From Tepiditoga spiralis (GTDB taxonomy: Bacteria; Thermotogota; Thermotogae; Petrotogales; Petrotogaceae): DNA of 64,000 nt. The translations under genes were made by a program, and so were the position numbers. Numbering within the stretch: position 1 is the stretch's first letter; the number at the start of each line of letters is the position of its first letter. The stretch lies in NCBI RefSeq assembly GCF_014701195.1, contig NZ_AP018712.1, positions 452,501-516,500 on the forward strand. The letters are read 5' to 3'. This document shows, one piece after another, positions 11,979 to 22,163 of this stretch. Under the pieces are notes generated by a model that saw only the letters and a list, made by a program, of their open reading frames with translations, made no database searches and was not told the DNA's origin.

Positions 11979-14354
11979 TTATATAGAAAAAAATTGTTTT
12001 GCTATTTCAACAGCTTTTTGTGCATCTTTAACATAATAATCTGCTTTTATCATATCAGTATATTTTTGATTTAAGACTGCTCCTCCAACCATAATTTTAC
12101 AATCTAATTTATTCTTACGTATTTCTTTAATTATATATTCCATACTTTTAACTGTTGTTGTCATCAAAGCGCTTAGTCCAACTAATCTTATATTTTCTTT
12201 TTTTATACTTTCTATTATTTTTTGTGCTGGTACATCTTTACCTAAATCTACTATTTCGTATCCATAGTTTTCAAGTATAACTTTTACTATATTTTTTCCT
12301 ATATCATGAACATCACCTTGAACAGTTGCCAAAAGTATTTTTTTTCCAACTTTTTTTTCTTCTCCTGACTTTAATATTATTTCTTTTATTAATTCAAATG
12401 ATTTTTTTACAGTTTCTGCAGATCTTATAAGTTGAGGTAAAAATATTTCTTCTTTTTCATATCGTTGTCCAACTATATCCAATGCTGGAATTAAAAATTC
12501 ATTTATTATTTCCATAGATTTTTTTTCTTTTAGCAAAATTTTTGTTGCTTCAATTGCTTCATCTTTTAAACCATCAATTATTATTTGTTTTAAATCTATT
12601 TCTTTTTGCATTTTAATTTCTTTATTTAATTTTTTTTGTATAACTTTTGAATACTTTTCTATAAATTTCTCTGATTGTTTATCTTGATTTGATAAAACTT
12701 TATATGAATAGATTATTTCTTTTATTTCTTCTTTTTTAGGATTTAATATTGGTGCATCAACTCCAGCTGTTAAAGCCATTGCTAAAAATGTTTTATTTAA
12801 TATGCTTCTATTTGGAAGGCCAAAAGATACATTACTTATTCCCAAAGTTGTTTTAACATTAAATTTTTCTTTAACCATTCTAACAGCTTTTATTGTTTCC
12901 ATAACATCTTCTTGTTGTGCTGATGCTGTTAAAACTAAACAATCTATCAATATATTTTTTTTATGTATTCCATATTTTTGAGCTGTTTTTATAATTTTTT
13001 CTGCAACTTCAACTCTTTCTTCTGCCTTTTTAGGTATCCCTCTTTCATCTAAGGTCAGTCCTACTACACATGCTCCATACTTTTTTACTATTGGAAATAT
13101 TTTTTCCATACTTTCTTTTTTACCATTTACAGAGTTTATTAATGGTTTACCATTATAAATTCTAACTGCATGTTCTATTACTTTTGGATCTGAACTATCA
13201 ATTTGAAGTGGTAATCCCATTACTGATTGTATTTCTTTTATAACTTTTATCATAATTTCTTCTTCGTTTATTTCGGGAAGTCCCACATTAACATCTAAAA
13301 TATCTGCGCCTTCTTCTTTTTGATTTATTGCTTCTTTTATTATATAATCTAAGTTTTTATCTCTTAATGCTTGTTTAAACTTCTTTTTTCCTGTTGGATT
13401 TATTCTTTCCCCTATTATTTTTAAAGTTTCACCTATCTTTACAGTTTTTGAATATGATGAAACTGCCGTGAATTCTTTTTCTTTTATTTTTTTTGGTTTT
13501 ACTGTTTTTAATTCTTTTGTCATTAATTTTATAAATCTTTCATCTGTACCACAACATCCTCCTATTATCTGTGCACCCATTTCAACTATTTTTTTCATGT
13601 GAGTTAAAAATTCTTTTGGAGTAATCTTATACTTTGTTTCACCATTTTCTATTTCTGGTAATCCAGCATTTGGTTGAACCATAACAGGTATTGATGAATA
13701 TTTTATAATTTTTTCTACTATTGGTATAGCTTCTTTTGGTCCAACAGAACAGTTTAATCCTAGTGCATCTACATCAAGTCCTTCTAAAACATTTACCATT
13801 GTCAATGGATCTGTTCCAGTAAATGTTCTTCCATCTTCTGTAAAAGTCATTGTACAAAAAACAGGTAATTTTGTATTTTCTTTTGCAGCAAGTATTGCTG
13901 CTTTTGCTTCATATAAATCTGATATTGTTTCTATTAAAATTAAGTCTGCACCTGCTTTTTCTCCAGCTATCATTTGTCTTTTAAACATATTATATGCTTC
14001 TTCAAACTTCAATGTTCCTGATGGTTCTAATAATCTTCCTATTGGTCCTATATCAAGTGCAACATATTGTACTCCAGTTGCACTCTTTGCTATTTTTACA
14101 GCTGATTCAACAATTTCTTCAACAGTATACTCGGTTCTTTTTAATTTAAATTCACTTGCACCAAAAGTATTTGTTGTTATTATTTGTGCACCTGACCTTA
14201 TATATAGTTCATGTATTTCTTTTATAATATTTGGGTTTGTAATATTTAATGTTTCTGGTAATGTTCCAAGTTTTAATCCTTTTTTTTGTAATTGCGTACC
14301 CATTGCACCATCAAAAAATAAAAGCTCATTTTTTATTCTTTCTTTAATATGCAC
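11979..14354 (-). CDS. metH: Cobalamin-dependent methionine synthase (MetH) lacking the reactivation domain
   Basis: Transfers the methyl group of 5-methyltetrahydrofolate to homocysteine through enzyme-bound cobalamin. Domains in order: homocysteine/zinc-binding barrel (1 to about 290, with the zinc cysteines in IGGCCGT near 266), pterin-binding barrel (about 310-560), B12 cap and Rossmann domain (about 585 to end) with the cobalt-ligand motif DVHDIGKN near 680. The fourth, AdoMet-binding reactivation domain of E. coli MetH is missing and is supplied by the preceding gene, as in T. maritima. GTG at 14354 is chosen because AAAGGGTGG lies a proper distance ahead; GTG at 14363 overlaps that SD. 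It overlaps the upstream gene by 11 nt. Confidence 0.93.
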   Translation of the reverse strand: MHIKERIKNELLFFDGAMGTQLQKKGLKLGTLPETLNITNPNIIKEIHELYIRSGAQIITTNTFGASEFKLKRTEYTVEEIVESAVKIAKSATGVQYVALDIGPIGRLLEPSGTLKFEEAYNMFKRQMIAGEKAGADLILIETISDLYEAKAAILAAKENTKLPVFCTMTFTEDGRTFTGTDPLTMVNVLEGLDVDALGLNCSVGPKEAIPIVEKIIKYSSIPVMVQPNAGLPEIENGETKYKITPKEFLTHMKKIVEMGAQIIGGCCGTDERFIKLMTKELKTVKPKKIKEKEFTAVSSYSKTVKIGETLKIIGERINPTGKKKFKQALRDKNLDYIIKEAINQKEEGADILDVNVGLPEINEEEIMIKVIKEIQSVMGLPLQIDSSDPKVIEHAVRIYNGKPLINSVNGKKESMEKIFPIVKKYGACVVGLTLDERGIPKKAEERVEVAEKIIKTAQKYGIHKKNILIDCLVLTASAQQEDVMETIKAVRMVKEKFNVKTTLGISNVSFGLPNRSILNKTFLAMALTAGVDAPILNPKKEEIKEIIYSYKVLSNQDKQSEKFIEKYSKVIQKKLNKEIKMQKEIDLKQIIIDGLKDEAIEATKILLKEKKSMEIINEFLIPALDIVGQRYEKEEIFLPQLIRSAETVKKSFELIKEIILKSGEEKKVGKKILLATVQGDVHDIGKNIVKVILENYGYEIVDLGKDVPAQKIIESIKKENIRLVGLSALMTTTVKSMEYIIKEIRKNKLDCKIMVGGAVLNQKYTDMIKADYYVKDAQKAVEIAKQFFSI

Positions 14355-14997
14355 ATGAACCACCCTTTCTTTTAAAACTACAATTTAACTTACATCCATC
14401 GCAACCATATATATTTGCAACACTATTTTCTTTTTGTAATCCAATAATTGCAGTTACTGATTTTTCAGGTATTAATACATTATTTTCTGTAACATCCAAT
14501 CCTATTTTTTTCCTTGTATCTAAAATATTTACTATTTCTTGTTGAACTTCTATTGAAAAATCTCCATATCCTGGACTGTATCTTGGAGTTATATAATATG
14601 GATACATTTCTTTTTCTATAATACTTTGAACTTCATCACAACTTTTTTCAACATAAACAGAAGCACAAGCATTAAAAATAACTGCTTTAGTCATATCTTT
14701 TAATTGATAATAACGTAGTTTTTTATCAATTTCAAATCCTATAGTAACTGCCATAATTGCACATTTGTCTGATGCTCTTAAATGAGTTTTTATATTTTCA
14801 CCTTTTAATAAAACCTCTGTTCCACTTAATAGTATTCCTTCTTTTAATTTTTCTAAATCAAAAATTTTAAATGTATATCTGTAAATAGAAGTGTTTTTTA
14901 CTTCTTCAATACTTTTATCTATTAAAAAATCTAATTTATTATCTATTTTTTGATTTTTGTACCCTAAATACCTTAACACTTCTTTTTTAAACTCCAA
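14344..14997 (-). CDS. Methionine synthase reactivation protein (TM0269-like)
   Basis: A 217-residue protein resembling the free-standing reactivation module of Thermotoga methionine synthase. That module uses AdoMet to remethylate cobalamin oxidised to the inactive Co(II) state. The central TPRYSPGYGDFSIEVQQEI corresponds to the RxxPGYxxxP-like AdoMet-binding region of the MetH activation domain. The tail CDGCKLNCSFKRKGGSCAY is cysteine-rich (four Cys), suggesting a small metal site in addition to the domain. It sits directly between metF and metH, overlapping metH, which fits a dedicated partner. Confidence 0.85.
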   Translation of the reverse strand: MEFKKEVLRYLGYKNQKIDNKLDFLIDKSIEEVKNTSIYRYTFKIFDLEKLKEGILLSGTEVLLKGENIKTHLRASDKCAIMAVTIGFEIDKKLRYYQLKDMTKAVIFNACASVYVEKSCDEVQSIIEKEMYPYYITPRYSPGYGDFSIEVQQEIVNILDTRKKIGLDVTENNVLIPEKSVTAIIGLQKENSVANIYGCDGCKLNCSFKRKGGSCAY

Positions 14998-14999
14998 TT

Positions 15000-15884
15000 T
15001 TATTCCTCCATTTTTATATTGATTTTTAATATAGATGTTATTCTTTTTACAATTTCTTTTGCTATTTTAGATTTATTCATAACATATAAGTGAATCCCAT
15101 CAACTCCAGTTGTTAAAAGATCTATAATTTGATCACATGCATATGTAACTCCTGCATCAATTAATGCTTCTTTATTATTTTCGTATTTATTCATTATTTT
15201 TATAAATTTTTCTGGTATATTTACTCCACACATAGATACTATTTTTTCAACTTGTTTTTTATTTACTACTGGCATTATACCTGCTTGAAGTGGTATATTT
15301 ATATTTCTATTTTTTAATTTTTCTCTAAAATCATAAAAATATTTATTATCAAAAAATAATTGTGTTATTAAAAAATCCGTTCCTGCATTTACTTTTTTAT
15401 TTAAATAATATAAATCTAAACTTTTATTTCTTGCTTCTATATGTCCTTCAGGATAACAAGCTGCACCTATACTAAACTTCTTTTTTTTAGATATGTATCT
15501 TATTAAGTCTTCAGCATAATTAAATTCTTTTTTTATATTTTTATCGTTTGGAATATCTCCACGTAATGCCAGCACATTAGATATGTTGTTTTCTATCAAT
15601 TGATTTAATATTTCATCTATTTCTTTTTTACTCGAATTTATACATGTTAAATGAGAAAGAGGTTCAATTTTATATTCTCTTTTTATAAAAGAAGAAATTT
15701 CTACTGTTTTATTGTTTTTTATACTACCCGACGCCCCATAAGTAACACTTATATAATCAGGATTCAATTGTGCAAGTTCATCTATTGTTTTATATATTGT
15801 TTTTATATTTGATTCTTTTTTTGGTGGAAATATTTCAAAAGATATAACTGGTTTCTTTTCTTTAAAAATATCTTTTATGTACAT
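15000..15884 (-). CDS. metF: Methylenetetrahydrofolate reductase
   Basis: The 294-residue flavoenzyme reduces 5,10-methylene- to 5-methyltetrahydrofolate, the methyl donor for MetH. Family marks are SFEIFPPKKE near the N-terminus (catalytic Glu), YISVTYGASGS, LALRGDIP and GAACYPEGH. Length is typical of the bacterial enzyme. The ATG at 15884 is preferred to the in-frame GTG nine bases upstream, because GAGAGGTG there is the SD. Only 3 nt separate it from the reactivation gene. Confidence 0.93.
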   Translation of the reverse strand: MYIKDIFKEKKPVISFEIFPPKKESNIKTIYKTIDELAQLNPDYISVTYGASGSIKNNKTVEISSFIKREYKIEPLSHLTCINSSKKEIDEILNQLIENNISNVLALRGDIPNDKNIKKEFNYAEDLIRYISKKKKFSIGAACYPEGHIEARNKSLDLYYLNKKVNAGTDFLITQLFFDNKYFYDFREKLKNRNINIPLQAGIMPVVNKKQVEKIVSMCGVNIPEKFIKIMNKYENNKEALIDAGVTYACDQIIDLLTTGVDGIHLYVMNKSKIAKEIVKRITSILKINIKMEE

Positions 15885-15889
15885 AAATA

Positions 15890-16618
15890 TCACCTCTCTA
15901 TTTCTATTTTACCCCAACTTCCAAGAGTATTATCAACTATTATTAAAATTCCTATAATATTTTTTATAGAAGTTGCAAATTTTATTCCTTTTTTTATATC
16001 TTCTTTTGTTTTAATAATATTTCCAATTGCTGTTGCCGTTGCATCAGCAAGTAATGTGTCTTCAGATAAAACTACCACTGCATCTGATTTTCCAAAACTC
16101 AAAGAATGTCCAAACGTTCCAGAAGATGTACATATTCCAAGTTTTTCATAATTTGGTTTTATCTTTAAAGATAGTTTATTAGAAAATTTAGATTTTCCAG
16201 CATATATTTTAATCTTTCTTTCCTTTTTTGTTTTTAAAAATATATCTCCGCCATTTTCAATTATTACTTCATCTGTATACTTTAAAAGTTCTATACCAAC
16301 ATATTCTGAAATTGCACCAGCAATCGCAGCCATTGGTCCAACATTAGTTAATTTACTGACTTTAATCATATGCTTTACTATTTTACTAGCATTTTCTTTT
16401 TCTACTATTGGTACTAAACTTTTATAAAATTCTATATTTTTAGCTGAATAATTTATTATTTCTTCTCTATATTTTTTTACCATTTTTTTTGTTATCTTAG
16501 ACAAATCTTTTTTTGCAGAAATAAACAAGTCTGTTTCAAATTCCATTACTCTAAAATTTGTCATATCCTGACTTTTCATTTTTTCTCTATAATCTCTTAC
16601 TTCATACAAATCAATCAT
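15890..16618 (-). CDS. UPF0280/COG2122 ApbE-like protein
   Basis: A 242-residue member of the UPF0280 family, recognised from VGPMAAIAGAISEYVG, VIIENGGDIFL, ICTSSGTFGHSLSFGKSDA and ADATATAIGN. The fold is ApbE-like. In methanogens a COG2122 protein works with the COG1900/DUF39 protein in making homocysteine from aspartate semialdehyde and sulfide. The DUF39 gene lies immediately upstream here and overlaps it by 8 nt, so the same partnership is inferred. The exact chemistry is not settled by the sequence. Confidence 0.85.
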   Translation of the reverse strand: MIDLYEVRDYREKMKSQDMTNFRVMEFETDLFISAKKDLSKITKKMVKKYREEIINYSAKNIEFYKSLVPIVEKENASKIVKHMIKVSKLTNVGPMAAIAGAISEYVGIELLKYTDEVIIENGGDIFLKTKKERKIKIYAGKSKFSNKLSLKIKPNYEKLGICTSSGTFGHSLSFGKSDAVVVLSEDTLLADATATAIGNIIKTKEDIKKGIKFATSIKNIIGILIIVDNTLGSWGKIEIER

Positions 16619-17744
16619 CTTCTTTCATTTTTTTTACTTTTTTATCTAATGGAAATACTTCAAGTGGTTTAGTTAATAAAAAGTTTCCATTTTTTATTTC
16701 ATCTTTTAATTCATTTGCAATTTTTCTAGCTTTTTTTAAATTAGATATTGATGCAGTTCTAACTTCTTTTCCATTTATTTTCACCATACCACTTTGAAGT
16801 TGTTTATAATTTACCTTTTTTATTTTTTTACCACTACTATAGTCAATAATATTTGTTTGTATTTCTTCATTTTTTATTGTTGTATATTTTAAAATTTCTT
16901 CATTTAAGATTGGAATTGGTATTCCAATACCAATAAACATTGATATTCCATAATTTTTAAAAATTACAGGTTGTATATATTCTTTATTCATTTTTTTTAA
17001 ATCTCCTATAACCGCTAATGTTCCTGCAGGTGTAATTGGCACTCCTCTTTCATTTCTTTCTGCAGAAGAATTAAATTGTGTACCCATCCAACTTACATAT
17101 CCTTGAGTTCCTGCTAAAAATATCTTTGTTCCTATTCCTATCGTTTTATAGTATGGATCATTTAATAGTGGACTTAACTCTCCTGTTGTACTATAGTTTA
17201 TATTACCCATATTTGGTCTTAAAGTTCCCATATACGTATAAATTTTTTTATCTGAAGCGTTTGTTGCCGCATTATAATTTTGATAAACATTTCTTGGATT
17301 AAATAAATAAGCTTCATTTATATCTTCTTTTGTTATGTATGTATCAACATGTTTTTTTGGATAACAATCAGTTCCATTTGAAGTTGCTTCTAAATGTATT
17401 TTTTTCCCAGATATTAAGTCATGTATTACGTGTGCTCCACCATATTTTTTATTTTTACTCTCTTGAGATGCCCCAATATATGAATCAACTGCAGCTAATC
17501 CAGAATATGCTTCTACACCATTCAAATAAGTTTTTTGCATTCTTATTGGCGGATTTGAATGTCCAAAATTTAAAAATGCTCCACTTGAACACATTGGCCC
17601 AAAGGTTGCTGTAGTAACAACATCCACATACTCTGCAGTTTTTTCAATTCCAATTTCTTCAACTATATCTATAATTTCTTCTGCTGTTACAACAACAGCT
17701 TCACCTTTTGAAATTTTTTCATTTATCTCTTCATAAGTTTTCAT
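16611..17744 (-). CDS. Homocysteine biosynthesis protein, DUF39/COG1900
   Basis: A 377-residue DUF39 protein (TATFGPMCSSGAFLNFGHS, with the conserved Cys; IGASQESKNKKYGGAHVI; GTQGYVSWMGTQFN). This family converts aspartate semialdehyde plus a sulfur source to homocysteine, bypassing homoserine activation. It ends after the core, without the CBS or ferredoxin extensions seen in some members, and no NIL/ferredoxin gene adjoins it. The start at 17744 is chosen for AAGGAGG about 8 nt upstream; the in-frame ATG at 17771 overlaps lysC further and has no SD. It overlaps lysC by 14 nt. Confidence 0.88.
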   Translation of the reverse strand: MKTYEEINEKISKGEAVVVTAEEIIDIVEEIGIEKTAEYVDVVTTATFGPMCSSGAFLNFGHSNPPIRMQKTYLNGVEAYSGLAAVDSYIGASQESKNKKYGGAHVIHDLISGKKIHLEATSNGTDCYPKKHVDTYITKEDINEAYLFNPRNVYQNYNAATNASDKKIYTYMGTLRPNMGNINYSTTGELSPLLNDPYYKTIGIGTKIFLAGTQGYVSWMGTQFNSSAERNERGVPITPAGTLAVIGDLKKMNKEYIQPVIFKNYGISMFIGIGIPIPILNEEILKYTTIKNEEIQTNIIDYSSGKKIKKVNYKQLQSGMVKINGKEVRTASISNLKKARKIANELKDEIKNGNFLLTKPLEVFPLDKKVKKMKEDD

Positions 17745-18963
17745 ACTTCTCAACCTCCTTATTTTTTTCAATTAACTTTTCGTGTAATTTTTTTAAACCA
17801 ATTTCTGAGTGTTCTTTTGAAACAATACAAGAAATTTTTATTTCTGAGCATGAAACCATGTCTATTGGTATTTTTTCATTTGATAATACTTCAAAAACTT
17901 TTGCTGCAATTCCAGGATTAGACTTTATTCCATATCCTATTACAGATATTTTTGAAACACTTTCATTAAACTCCACATTTTTTGCTTTTAATTTTTCCTT
18001 TATCTTATTACTTACACATAATGCTTTCTCAAAATCATTCTTACTTAAGGTAAAAGATATATCTATTTCATCTTTTACTTTGTTTTCTACAATTAAATCT
18101 ATGTTTATACCTTCATTTGCAATTTCCTTAAATATAGTATTTAAAACATTTATAGAGTAAGGTATTCCTTTTATTGAAATTTTTGATTCGTTTTTTGATA
18201 ATGTAATTCCTTTTATTATAGGTTTTTCCATATTTTTAACCCCTCCAACAATAGTTCCTATTTCTTCTGTAAATGAAGATCTTAAATGTATCTTTAAATT
18301 ATTTTTTGCAGCTAATTCAACACATCTTCCATGAAGAACTTTTGCTCCAGAATCAGCCATTTCAAGCATTTCTTCATAAGAAATTTTTTGTATTTTTTTT
18401 GCATTATTTACTATTCTTGGATCTGAAGTATAAACTCCATTAACATCTGTACATATATCTACCTCCTTTAATCCTAAAGCTGCAGCAACTGCTGTTGCTG
18501 TGATATCTGATCCACCTCTTCCTAAAGTCGTTATTTCATTTTTTTTGGTAACTCCTTGAAAACCTGCTAAAATTACTACATTATCTTTTTCTAATTCTTT
18601 TTTTATTCTTTTTATATTTATTTTTTTTATTTTTGCTTTATTGTAATTCTCGTTTGTTAAAATACTCGCCTGCCAACCTGTAAATGAGATGGATTTTTCT
18701 CCTAAATTTTGTATTGCCATCGATAATAAAGATATAGATACTTGTTCACCAACAGATAAAATCATATCTAATTCTCGTTTTGATGGTGTTTTTGAAATTT
18801 TTTTTGCCTTTTCTAAAAGATCATTAGTCATTCCAGCAGGAGCAGAAACAACAACAATTATTTTATTTTTTTTCTTTAATTCAACTACTTTTTTTGCTAT
18901 CTTTTCTATTCTTTCAACTGTTGCAACTGATGTTCCTCCATACTTTTTTACTATAATATTCAT
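17731..18963 (-). CDS. lysC: Aspartate kinase
   Basis: Phosphorylates aspartate, the first step toward methionine, lysine and threonine. The 410-residue protein opens with VKKYGGTSVA, the aspartokinase nucleotide signature, and has the catalytic-domain segments TLGRGGSDITA and VDICTDVNGVYTSDPR. Two ACT regulatory domains make up the last ~145 residues (the second ends near KLHEKLIEKN). It leads a methionine operon behind a SAM riboswitch, so this copy is probably dedicated to methionine. SD AGGAGGG lies immediately after the leader terminator. Confidence 0.95.
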   Translation of the reverse strand: MNIIVKKYGGTSVATVERIEKIAKKVVELKKKNKIIVVVSAPAGMTNDLLEKAKKISKTPSKRELDMILSVGEQVSISLLSMAIQNLGEKSISFTGWQASILTNENYNKAKIKKINIKRIKKELEKDNVVILAGFQGVTKKNEITTLGRGGSDITATAVAAALGLKEVDICTDVNGVYTSDPRIVNNAKKIQKISYEEMLEMADSGAKVLHGRCVELAAKNNLKIHLRSSFTEEIGTIVGGVKNMEKPIIKGITLSKNESKISIKGIPYSINVLNTIFKEIANEGINIDLIVENKVKDEIDISFTLSKNDFEKALCVSNKIKEKLKAKNVEFNESVSKISVIGYGIKSNPGIAAKVFEVLSNEKIPIDMVSCSEIKISCIVSKEHSEIGLKKLHEKLIEKNKEVEKYENL

Positions 18964-18974
18964 TCTTCCCTCCT

Positions 18975-19015
18975 AAAAAAAAAATCGGTTGTGAATTTAT
19001 CTTCACAACCGATTT
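18975..19015 (-). terminator. Attenuator terminator directly ahead of lysC
   Basis: On the minus strand, a perfect 14-bp stem: AAATCGGTTGTGAA (19015-19002), a 6-nt loop, then TTCACAACCGATTT (18995-18982), running into T10 (18984-18975). The lysC SD starts about one base after the T run, so any lysC mRNA must read through it. Its 5' arm can pair instead with 19061-19072 in the leader ORF. Confidence 0.92.
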
Positions 19016-19029
19016 AAAGCTCTATTATG

Positions 19030-19125
19030 TCAATTTATATAACAAAAGACATGGGCATAAAAATCGGTTATGCCACACATCCACATATTCATATTTATTT
19101 TCTTTACTATTTTTATTACATTCAT
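19030..19125 (-). CDS. 31-residue leader peptide upstream of lysC
   Basis: A short ORF with an excellent SD (GGAGG, 7 nt before the ATG), too small for most gene finders. It reads MNVIKIVKKIN, then MNMWMCGITDFYAHVFCYIN, then TGA. Met codons at positions 12, 14 and 16 and Cys codons at 17 and 28 stand out. Codons 18-24 form the hairpin GGCATAA-CCGATTT-TTATGCC (19074-19054). The bases CATAACCGATTT inside it are complementary to the 5' arm of the lysC terminator. It lies between the SAM-I terminator and the lysC terminator, as a classical attenuation leader would. Confidence 0.7.
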   Translation of the reverse strand: MNVIKIVKKINMNMWMCGITDFYAHVFCYIN

Positions 19126-19139
19126 ATAAATTCCTCCAT

Positions 19140-19169
19140 AAAAAAATGTCTCTTTCATTTGAAAGAGAC
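19140..19169 (-). terminator. SAM-I riboswitch terminator
   Basis: GTCTCTTTC (19169-19161), loop AAAT, GAAAGAGAC (19156-19148), then AT7. It lies 10 nt after the aptamer and directly before the SD of the leader ORF. The arms share AAATGAAAG with the aptamer's last hairpin, giving scope for an alternative antiterminator. Confidence 0.9.
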
Positions 19170-19179
19170 AATATTTTTT

Positions 19180-19279
19180 ATTATCTTTCATTTCAAATGA
19201 AATGCTGGATTTAGCACCACACAAAAATTGCAGGTTGCTGAAAGGTCATAGGGCCAGTCCCTCACTTTCTCTTGATAAT
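19180..19279 (-). ncRNA. SAM-I riboswitch (S box)
   Basis: The minus strand reads ATTATCAAGAGAAAGTGAGG, then GACTGGCCCTATGA, CAGCAACCTGCA, TGTGTGGTGCTAAATCCAGC and GATAAT. These are the conserved S-box elements: P1 (ATTATC/GATAAT), the kink-turn GAGGGACTGGC...ATGA, AGCAACC, and GGTGCTAA-TCC in P3. SAM binding to this class favours the downstream terminator. Everything from lysC to metH lies downstream. Confidence 0.95.
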
Positions 19280-19296
19280 TTTATTTAATTTTCAAA

Positions 19297-19325
19297 ATAA
19301 TACCACAAAAATATTTTTTTGTCAA
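19297..19325 (-). promoter_or_regulatory. Promoter of the lysC-metH operon
   Basis: -35 TTGACA (19325-19320), exactly 17 nt, -10 TATTAT (19302-19297), minus strand. The predicted start near 19290 is about 10 nt before the SAM-I aptamer. Confidence 0.85.
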
Positions 19326-19353
19326 CTGTGTTTTTTTATAATTTAATACTTTA

Positions 19354-19953
19354 TTATTTATACCTTTTTATCAATTCTTTTAGTCCTGAATCAGTATTTC
19401 CTTCACCTATAGCACCAAATTTCCATTCATTATTATGTCTATAAAGTTCAGCTACTACTAAAGATGTTTTATTAGAATAATCATCACTTAAATTATATTT
19501 AAGTAATTCTTTTTTTCCTTCAATATCTACTAATCTTATGAAAGCATTTTTTATCATTCCAAAGTGTTGTTTTCTTCTAACACAATCATATATATTTACA
19601 ACAAATACCAATCTGCTTATATCACTTGGAACTCTTGATAAATCAACAAATATTTGTTCATCGTCGCCTTCTCCTTCTCCTGTTAAGTTATCTCCTTGAT
19701 GAATAACACTATTTGCTTTATCATTTAAATTTCCAAAGTAAACTAAATCAGAGTTACTTTGCAACTTATCATTTTTCAACATTAAAACTGATGCATCGCA
19801 GTCTATATCTTGATTTTCTTTAAAAAGTGATTTAAAAAAACCTTTTGCACTTTGTTCAACAGGATCCCAACCAAGGCCCACCATTATTTTAGATAAGCCT
19901 GCATAATCCTTAGATAAATTTATTTTTTGTCCTTTTGTGAGATTTATACTCAT
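19354..19953 (-). CDS. TerD-family stress protein (divergent paralogue)
   Basis: A 199-residue TerD-domain protein. It keeps the Ca-binding style segments IDCDASVLML and [15 protein letters not shown] and the C-terminal HNNEWKFGAIGEG. It differs from the other two copies by a 12-residue insertion (AKGFFKSLFKENQ) before the first acidic loop and by a Cys in place of the usual Phe/Leu between the aspartates. TerD proteins bind calcium and act in tellurite/chemical-stress responses. It is last in the minus-strand ter operon, 11 nt after the next TerD gene. Confidence 0.88.
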   Translation of the reverse strand: MSINLTKGQKINLSKDYAGLSKIMVGLGWDPVEQSAKGFFKSLFKENQDIDCDASVLMLKNDKLQSNSDLVYFGNLNDKANSVIHQGDNLTGEGEGDDEQIFVDLSRVPSDISRLVFVVNIYDCVRRKQHFGMIKNAFIRLVDIEGKKELLKYNLSDDYSNKTSLVVAELYRHNNEWKFGAIGEGNTDSGLKELIKRYK

Positions 19954-19964
19954 AATATCATCTC

Positions 19965-20540
19965 CTATACATCAAGTCCATAGTTTTTTACAAGTGCTGC
20001 TAAACCACCTGAAAATCCACTTCCTACTGCATTGAATTTCCATTCATTATTGTGTTTGTAAATTTCACAAATAACTAAAGCAGTTTCTACAGAAAAATCT
20101 TCTGTTAAATCATATCTTAAATATTCTTCGTTTGTATCTTGATTTACTATTCTAACAAAGGCATTTGATACTTGACCAAAGTTTTGTTTTCTTTGATCTG
20201 CTTCAAAGATAGTTACTGTTATAGCAATTTTTTCGATATTTGAAGGGATTTTTTCAAAATCTATTAAGATTTCTTCATCGTCTCCTTCTCCTTCTCCAGT
20301 TCTATTATCTCCTGTATGAATAACTGCTCCACTTGGATGTTTTAAATTATTATAAAAAACAAAATCAGTTTCTGATGTTGCTTTTCCATTTGCATCTAAT
20401 AAAAAAGCTGATGCATCTAAATCAAAGTCAAATCCTCCATCATATTTATTTGTATCCCATCCAAGTCCTACTATAACTTTTTTTATTCCTGTTCCTTTTG
20501 TCAAATCTACTTTTTCACCTTTTTTTAAACTAATAGCCAT
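19965..20540 (-). CDS. TerD-family stress protein
   Basis: A 191-residue TerD protein with [29 protein letters not shown] and [15 protein letters not shown], the paired acidic loops that coordinate Ca2+ in this family. It is nearly identical to the 21588-22163 copy over its length, so the two arose by recent duplication. The ATG at 20540 follows a GGGGG SD; the longer ORF from 20564 would overlap the upstream gene and lacks an SD. Confidence 0.93.
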
Positions 20541-20556
20541 TTTTTTACCCCCTTTT

Positions 20557-21555
20557 TTATCCATTTATTGCTTTTATGACAACATAAACTATAAAAAGCA
20601 AATAAACTATGCCCATTATCCCTGCATCTTTTTTATGCATTCCTTTTTTCTTCAATAATAAAATTCCAGTTGTAAACATTGAAATTAATAAAAATCCAAA
20701 CATACCTGCATTTTGAGATAGTTGAACTTCTATAGTTCTTCCTGCTATAACCATTGGTATTCCAAGTCCAACACATATGTCAAAGATATTTGATCCAACA
20801 GCATTTGAGATAGCTCCATCAGCATCACCTTTTTTAGCAGATTTAACTGATAGTAATGTATCTGGTATAGATGTTGCTGCTGCTATAACAACAACAGAAA
20901 CAATAAATGGTGGAACATGTATTGTATTTGATATAACTAAAGCTGAAGCAATTATTGCATCAATTGATATCCAAATAATAGCCATTGCAACAACTATCCA
21001 AAATGTTATTAACAAATAGCTCATATCTTCTTCTAATTCTTCTTGTTCTTCTTGATTATTTCTAAAATCTTTAGTTTGAAGATATAAAACATATATATAT
21101 GCAGAATATATTAGTAATAATATTAAACCTGTATAAATGTTAAAGTATCCAATATATGTAAAAATAAATAATGTAACTATTGATATTAAATAAAAAATCA
21201 TATCTCTATAAACATATTGAGCTTTTACTTTCAAATTTAAATCAATTCCTTTAAATGCTAATATACTAACAAGAGGTATTAATAATATATTAAATATTCC
21301 AGACCCTGCAATAGTGGCAACTCCAACATCATTAAATTTATGATATAAAAGAACAGCTATCATTGCTGTTGCAAATTCTGGAAAGGATGAAGCTATTGCA
21401 TCAAATGTTGCCCCACGAACAGAAGTTGGGATATTTAACTTTAATCCTGTAATATGTAAAACATCTCCTAATTTATCTGATGCTACACTAACTAAATAAC
21501 TCATTACAACTAATACTGGTAAAGCAATCCAAATATTTGTTATCCACTCAAACAT
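20557..21555 (-). CDS. Ca2+/cation antiporter (CaCA family)
   Basis: A 332-residue membrane protein with two Na_Ca_ex halves of about five membrane segments each. The alpha-repeats are visible: [18 protein letters not shown] (about 43-60) and [34 protein letters not shown] (second half, with the family's GSNIFD). An acidic cytosolic loop ([10 protein letters not shown]) lies between them. It is flanked on both sides by terD genes in one operon. B. subtilis and enterobacterial ter clusters carry a TerC-type membrane protein at this place. Calcium transport is inferred from family and from the Ca-binding TerD partners. Confidence 0.88.
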
Positions 21556-21587
21556 AAAAGTATCCTCCTAATTTTATATTATTTTTT

Positions 21588-22163
21588 TTAAGCATCAAGT
21601 CCATAATTTTTCACAAGTGTTTCTAAACCACCTGAAAATCCACTTCCTACTGCATTGAATTTCCATTCATTATTGTGTTTATAAATTTCACAAATAACTA
21701 AAACTGTTTCTATTGAAAAATCTTCACTTAAATCATACCTTAAATATTCTTCATTTGTATCTTGATTTATTACTCTAACAAAGGCATTTGATACTTGTCC
21801 AAAGTTTTGTTTTCTTGTTTCTGCATCGTGTATTGTTACAGCTATAGAAATTTTTTCGATATTCGAAGGAATTTTTTCAAAATCTATTAAGATTTGTTCA
21901 TCATCTCCTTCTCCTTCTCCAGTTTTATTATCTCCTGTATGAATAACTGCTCCACTTGGATGTTTTAAATTATTATAAAATATGAAATCAGAATCTGATG
22001 TTGCTTTTCCATTCGCATCTAATAAAAATACTGAAGCATCTAAATCAAAGTCAAATCCTCCATCATATTTATTTGTATCCCATCCAAGTCCTACTATAAC
22101 TTTTTTTATTCCTGTTCCTTTTGTTAAATTTATTTTTTCCCCTTTTTTTAAATTTATAGACAT
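21588..22163 (-). CDS. TerD-family stress protein
   Basis: A 191-residue TerD protein, first gene of the minus-strand ter operon. Acidic loops [11 protein letters not shown] and [15 protein letters not shown] are intact. SD AAAGGAGGAG stands about 7 nt before the ATG. Very high identity to the 19965-20540 product indicates duplication with the antiporter gene caught between the copies. Confidence 0.93.

Follow-up and report, generated by a model that had tools for sequence, protein, structure and literature searches.

Background

Leader-peptide attenuation is a textbook mechanism of gene control, and the methionine T-box riboswitches of Firmicutes report the charging of tRNA-Met to methionine genes by way of a terminator. 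The amino-acid attenuators represented in Rfam are those for His, Leu, Thr and Trp, with the Ile/Val and Phe attenuators lying outside Rfam, and T-boxes are mentioned in the same paper (PMC3766115). Leader-peptide systems were known only from Proteobacteria, Actinobacteria and, as newly reported there, a few Firmicutes (PMC2965389). Mycobacterial cys operons have Cys-rich leader peptides upstream; the study found no conserved terminator hairpins at these sites and, before the methionine operons of Actinobacteria, no conserved RNA structures (PMC1262725).

Here, we describe a leader region in front of a methionine biosynthesis operon in the window, which is the whole stretch of 64,000 nucleotides that was analysed. 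The segment 19125-18976 on the minus strand is very probably a transcription attenuator that works through a translating ribosome and responds to how fully elongator methionyl-tRNA is charged, by the logic known from trp and his.

Organization of the operon and its leader region

The operon appears, from the profile matches of its products, to serve methionine synthesis via the DUF39 route to homocysteine. Its genes are as follows.

17731-18963, minus strand: lysC, monofunctional aspartate kinase, the operon's first gene (NF005155, 489.8 bits, cut-off 346)
16611-17771, minus strand: DUF39/HcyBio, homocysteine biosynthesis (sulfur incorporation) enzyme (PF01837, 511.5 bits); the ORF as given begins upstream of its likely start
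15890-16618, minus strand: UPF0280-like protein (NF003323, 280.3 bits, cut-off 271)
15000-15893, minus strand: MetF, methylenetetrahydrofolate reductase (TIGR00676)
14344-14997, minus strand: separate methionine synthase activation-domain protein (PF02965)
11979-14363, minus strand: MetH, B12-dependent methionine synthase without activation domain (NCBIfam/Pfam profile matches)

MetH is split: its reactivation domain is a small protein of its own (14344-14997), encoded just upstream of the catalytic part (11979-14363). Directly upstream of the whole operon and its leader, on the same strand (19354-22163), are three TerD-domain genes and a gene of the Na+/Ca2+ exchanger family.

The leader region carries the following features.

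19297-19325, minus strand: putative sigma-70 promoter TTGACA-17-TATTAT upstream of SAM-I (consensus match only, 11/12, TG before the -10 element)
19178-19281, minus strand: SAM-I (S-box) riboswitch aptamer (Rfam RF00162, 86.1 bits against a gathering score of 44.4, E 3.4e-20)
19140-19170, minus strand: terminator 1, the SAM-I expression platform (10-bp stem 19170-19147 and T-run)
19133-19137, minus strand: Shine-Dalgarno sequence GGAGG of the leader ORF, 7 nt before the ATG
19030-19125, minus strand: leader peptide ORF of 31 codons, MNVIKIVKKINMNMWMCGITDFYAHVFCYIN and stop, read directly, with homologues in other families
19078-19092, minus strand: regulatory Met cluster, Met codons 12 (19092-19090), 14 (19086-19084) and 16 (19080-19078)
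19054-19074, minus strand: P1, anti-antiterminator hairpin GGCATAA-CCGATTT-TTATGCC, from sequence and fold
19061-19072, minus strand: antiterminator strand CATAACCGATTT, pairing with the 5' arm of terminator 2
18974-19015, minus strand: terminator 2 (14-bp stem 19015-18982, 6-nt loop GATAAA, T-run)

The order is therefore putative promoter (the top-scoring minus-strand promoter-like site in the leader region), SAM-I, terminator 1, GGAGG, the ORF with P1 and the antiterminator, terminator 2 and lysC. The SAM-I assignment is based on a score above the RF00162 gathering score followed by the terminator at 19170-19147. SAM-I was the sole match in an Rfam search of positions 17000-21000 with E up to 1, which gave no T-box, and the Rfam His, Leu, Thr and Trp leader models did not match the window element.

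The part between terminator 1 and lysC has the anatomy of an attenuator. A Shine-Dalgarno sequence and a short ORF, translatable by its sequence, lie between the putative promoter and the operon, and Met12, Met14 and Met16 form a cluster of codons for the operon's own end product, methionine. An intrinsic terminator precedes the first gene, together with a mutually exclusive antiterminator: CATAACCGATTT (19072-19061) forms 12 bp, one of them a G-U pair, with AAATCGGTTGTG, the terminator 2 5' arm (19015-19004). A third hairpin (of the 1:2 type), P1, competes with the antiterminator, and in footprint folding a ribosome placed at the control codons disturbs it. An earlier note on this DNA had described the ORF with its Shine-Dalgarno sequence, the 12-bp pairing that excludes the lysC terminator and the local hairpin GGCATAA/TTATGCC at 19074-19054. 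All three are where that note placed them, and we add that P1 in the predicted fold is lengthened from below to about 14 bp, so that Met codon 16 is included.

These features exceed chance expectation. The antiterminator duplex has an energy of -18.2 kcal/mol, compared with -9.1 ± 2.2 for dinucleotide-shuffled sequences, none of 500 of which equalled it, and four terminator-like sites were found, where 0.1 would be expected. The fold of the full leader has a z of -3.8, and the Met cluster was matched in 4 of 2000 shuffles.

Homologous leaders in Thermotogota

Of 103 Thermotogota genomes, 35 have DUF39. Operon heads were scanned for short ORFs that had a Shine-Dalgarno sequence, three or more Met codons in a run of eight and a terminator no further than about 220 nt away; visual inspection added three members of a single genus, in which two Met are clustered. 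The Shine-Dalgarno sequence and the in-frame Met codons are scanner criteria, so for scanner-found leaders they do not count as independent evidence; covariance-model matches, antiterminator geometry and gene targets do.

A Met-rich leader stands before the DUF39 operon in 23 of the 35 genomes, in families f1, f3, f4, f5, f9 and f11, and also in G046, whose contig ends before DUF39. The Met cluster in lysC-operon leaders takes forms such as MMAMMMW, MMIMCG, KGYMMMR, SMMMR and similar. Examples are NMMAMMMWRTDR within an f9 leader and NVNMMIMCG in f9/g29, KGYMMMR.TPPKLGG in f4, SMMMRWKAPG in f5, NTMMMRMMGRRR in f11 and NVMAMIMC in f3; in three f3 leaders, the cluster consists of just two Met codons. 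A leader was not recognised in 12 of the 35 (G011, G042, G045, G056, where the contig is cut, G057-G062, G071 and G088). The match in G050 (L055/L186) has no well-placed Shine-Dalgarno sequence and is a weaker member, kept since its antiterminator fits (7 of 500 shuffles). The window's two nearest lysC-operon relatives weaken the family picture. G011 has SAM-I without a leader, and the G004 leader (L188:4848-4943) has no standard start near its Shine-Dalgarno sequence, with ATA at the right spacing; whether this is a rare start or decay of a leader behind SAM-I is uncertain. The Met codons of G004 lie 51 nt from an antiterminator that is not significant (61 of 500 shuffles).

In G068 (L180:4000-6000), the leader and terminator are intact and the aspartokinase gene follows about 2 kb further on, which suggests a possible insertion between attenuator and operon.

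A covariance model, R1, was built from seven f9 lysC leaders only and is blind to reading frames and Met codons. It picked up the lysC leaders of f11 and f3, and led to new sites before metY in G101 and before metQ in G010, G015 and G020. Having been trained on f9, R1 misses the leaders of the window and of G004. When metQ loci were located via PF03180 and their upstream regions scanned, a Met leader was found before metQ in 15 genomes; two (G101, G102) have one before metY. The genes behind these leaders are MetQ and O-acetylhomoserine sulfhydrylase by NCBIfam. The closest relative found for the window leader precedes metQ in G003. The two leaders have KI..KIN.N and TAACCGATT in common and align with a score of 114, compared with 65 ± 7 for shuffles. 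The window leader, used as a DNA query against its own genome, gave no second copy, only A+T-rich chance matches. Two second metQ copies in f2/g11 (L295, L297) are preceded by short ORFs ending GMVMCRE.P, with two Met codons and a terminator, possibly degenerate Met leaders.

As background, 109 kb of lysC loci from other Thermotogota gave no Met hits, and a Met scan of 784 kb of other-phylum lysC loci, obtained by a lysC-alignment scan of contigs, gave one distinct ORF and no convincing Met leader. The element appears to be phylum-wide in Thermotogota and not confined to lysC operons of Petrotogaceae. Alignment of homologous lysC leaders in Petrotogaceae had been proposed beforehand as a check; the conserved ORFs and coevolving pairing that it looked for were found, in a range of genomes for which that scope was too narrow.

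Conservation of the antiterminator

The antiterminator strand starts 3-9 nt past the last clustered Met codon in 34 of the 36 leaders analysed, the exceptions being G004 (51 nt) and G085 (17 nt). When terminator arms were swapped among 13 representatives, the mean duplex energy was -12.3 kcal/mol, compared with -21.1 for the native pairs, and none of 20,000 permutations was as good. Antiterminator and terminator arm evidently coevolve, and shared ancestry alone does not account for this, because the sequences differ between lineages while pairing is kept. In almost every leader, P1 begins close to the Met cluster and includes the antiterminator, either within the loop or within the 5' arm. The arms of P1 are complementary yet divergent by lineage, as in GGCGTACC/GGTATGCC, GGTGTACC/GGTACACC, GCCGGCG/CGCCGGT and GTGGCAT/ATGCCAC.

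Conservation of P1 and of the antiterminator would also be expected of a structured RNA switch, in which the ORF is untranslated and a protein or small molecule sets the balance between P1 and the antiterminator; without a ribosome, P1 is indeed the predicted fold of the window leader up to the terminator arm. We regard this explanation as hardly credible, given that no aptamer-like sequence is conserved among the families beyond the Met codons, that Rfam, even at a relaxed E-value, gave no more than sub-threshold chance hits for the element, whether in the window or in ten related loci, and that, of 72 alternative frames, only 5 stay open over the stretch of the leader frame.

Predicted effect of a translating ribosome

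The earlier proposal to fold the leader with and without ribosome constraints was carried out: a ribosome footprint was moved along the ORF codon by codon, and the transcript was folded each time as far as the 5' arm of the terminator. In every leader tested, predicted antiterminator pairing was higher with the ribosome at the Met codons than when it had moved beyond them or reached the stop codon. The expected number of antiterminator pairs in the window leader was 15.7 at Met12, 15.1 at Met14 and 10.1 at Met16, compared with 0.9 at codon 24 and 1.0 at the stop codon. Pairing rose again at codons 27-31. With no ribosome, the window leader gave 10.0 expected pairs when upstream context was included, and P1 won in a separate fold up to the terminator arm. 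Most leaders form the antiterminator even without a ribosome in this equilibrium model, and the OFF state in untranslated RNA would therefore depend on P1 forming first during transcription.

Any pause over codons 7-15 favours the antiterminator in this model, as it would if the leader read translation in general, for example the slowing of ribosomes by antibiotics or with growth, and the Met codons were incidental. That reading is very unlikely in view of the Met specificity across families and of the Met-related targets metQ, metY and lysC-DUF39-metH.

The identity of the signal

The earlier note had left open whether cysteine, methionine or translation itself is the signal, and had pointed to a pause around codons 26-29 (Val-Phe-Cys-Tyr). 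Such a pause does free the antiterminator in the folding model. A leader reading cysteinyl-tRNA, through Cys17 and mainly Cys28, would act in this way, with a ribosome at codon 28 covering the P1 3' arm; the model gives 12.2 expected pairs at Cys28 and 10.2 at Cys17. Sulfur enters homocysteine in the DUF39 pathway, so Cys status could matter, and Cys follows the Met cluster in several leaders (MCG, MCI). However, Cys is clustered in only 1 of 24 lysC leaders and is absent from several (G039, G046, G063, G080), and most leaders have nothing that corresponds to codons 26-29 of the window leader. It is thus improbable that cysteine is the main signal.

Methionine, by comparison, is constant. At least three of a residue in eight codons were found in the 24 lysC leaders as follows: Met in 21, Lys in 8, Ile and Asn in 6 each, Cys in 1 and Trp in none; the clustering of Lys, Ile and Asn is as expected for A+T-rich genomes. 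When the scanner was rerun for each residue at the same lysC loci, it returned 19 loci for Met, 2 for His, 1 for Cys and none for Trp or Asp, and at the metQ/metY loci 16 for Met, 1 each for Cys and His and none for Trp. No scarce residue other than Met clusters in the homologous leaders, and Met codons appear to be their only constant feature. Of the signals first considered, methionine is thus the one borne out, by this constancy, the spacing in 34 of 36 leaders and the metQ and metY targets.

Proposed mechanism and relation to the SAM-I riboswitch

The earlier claim that a leader-peptide transcription attenuator guards the lysC-DUF39-metH operon is supported by the anatomy and the homologues. 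Anatomy, conservation and the coevolution of antiterminator and terminator were observed directly; translation of the ORF, stalling, read-through and a combined gate we infer. A ribosome would initiate on the leader ORF and, when charged Met-tRNA is scarce, stall in the Met cluster at codons 12-16. The stalled ribosome would block the foot and 5' arm of P1 and leave the antiterminator strand just downstream free to pair with the terminator 2 5' arm, so that RNA polymerase could read through into lysC. When Met-tRNA is plentiful, the ribosome would cross the antiterminator strand and depart at the stop codon. P1 could then close over the antiterminator, terminator 2 would form, and transcription would end before lysC. 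SAM-I and terminator 1, upstream in the same transcript, would also have to be passed, and full expression should require low SAM and low charged Met-tRNA together.

The order SAM-I then leader occurs in the window genome (G000) and in G004, which belongs to another genus, and G011, also of Petrotogaceae, has SAM-I only. A search of 41 relatives found SAM-I only in f1, so that within this set no lysC leader of another family is accompanied by SAM-I. Upstream of metQ, nine other Petrotogaceae genomes have SAM-I in place of the leader. In three Petrotogaceae genomes (loci L229, L233, L239), the stretch from the SAM-I terminator to metQ contains several imperfect tandem repeats of a unit about 100-130 bp long, with a CAGGGC.CAGCCCT-like sequence. 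We infer, as the simplest reading, that the leader is the older control of the lysC operon in the phylum and that SAM-I was added in Petrotogaceae, sometimes replacing it. It is likely that the leaders form a previously undescribed, phylum-wide Met attenuator regulon (lysC-DUF39, metQ, metY) that is swapped with SAM-I between genera, and that the two are stacked in the window as a two-input gate, by which methionine biosynthesis would be transcribed only when SAM and charged Met-tRNA are both low.

If this is true, Thermotogota, only some of which have SAM-I, would gain a control of methionine synthesis and uptake. The window would be a natural case of one transcript that senses, in series, a product (Met-tRNA) and a downstream cofactor (SAM), and unnamed genes behind such leaders would become candidates for methionine metabolism.

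Comparison with known systems

The suggestion that an attenuator of such design is undescribed agrees with our searches: there is no Rfam family for a Met attenuator, and the literature searched, mostly non-subscription papers, so that an earlier description is possible, contained no leader-peptide attenuator with methionine codons and no tandem of a SAM riboswitch and a leader peptide.

Methionine T-boxes bind tRNA directly, without a ribosome, and no T-box matched in the window region. With the mycobacterial Cys-rich leaders, the element shares runs of sulfur amino acid codons in an upstream ORF (PMC1262725). With SAM-I (RF00162), which is found upstream of metQ and metY in other Petrotogaceae, it shares the same kinds of target genes. 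SAM-I senses SAM by direct binding, whereas the leader element has no aptamer and takes the place of SAM-I before metQ in other genera.

The closest likeness is to the trp, his, thr, leu, ilv and phe attenuators of the enterobacterial type, with which the element shares a Shine-Dalgarno sequence and short ORF, a cluster of end-product codons, three alternative hairpins and an intrinsic terminator before the first structural gene. Unlike the trp/his type, the Thermotogota element would read methionine, occurs in Thermotogota, matches no Rfam model and has its antiterminator mostly in the P1 loop, directly behind the control codons; in the window, it also stands in tandem with a riboswitch. Methionine is absent from the attenuator amino acids of one paper (PMC3766115) and leader-peptide systems are confined to few phyla in the other (PMC2965389), and a conserved Met attenuator of Thermotogota would therefore extend both lists. 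The logic, leader-peptide attenuation, is known; as far as we have found, the amino acid, the phylum and the pairing with a riboswitch are new.
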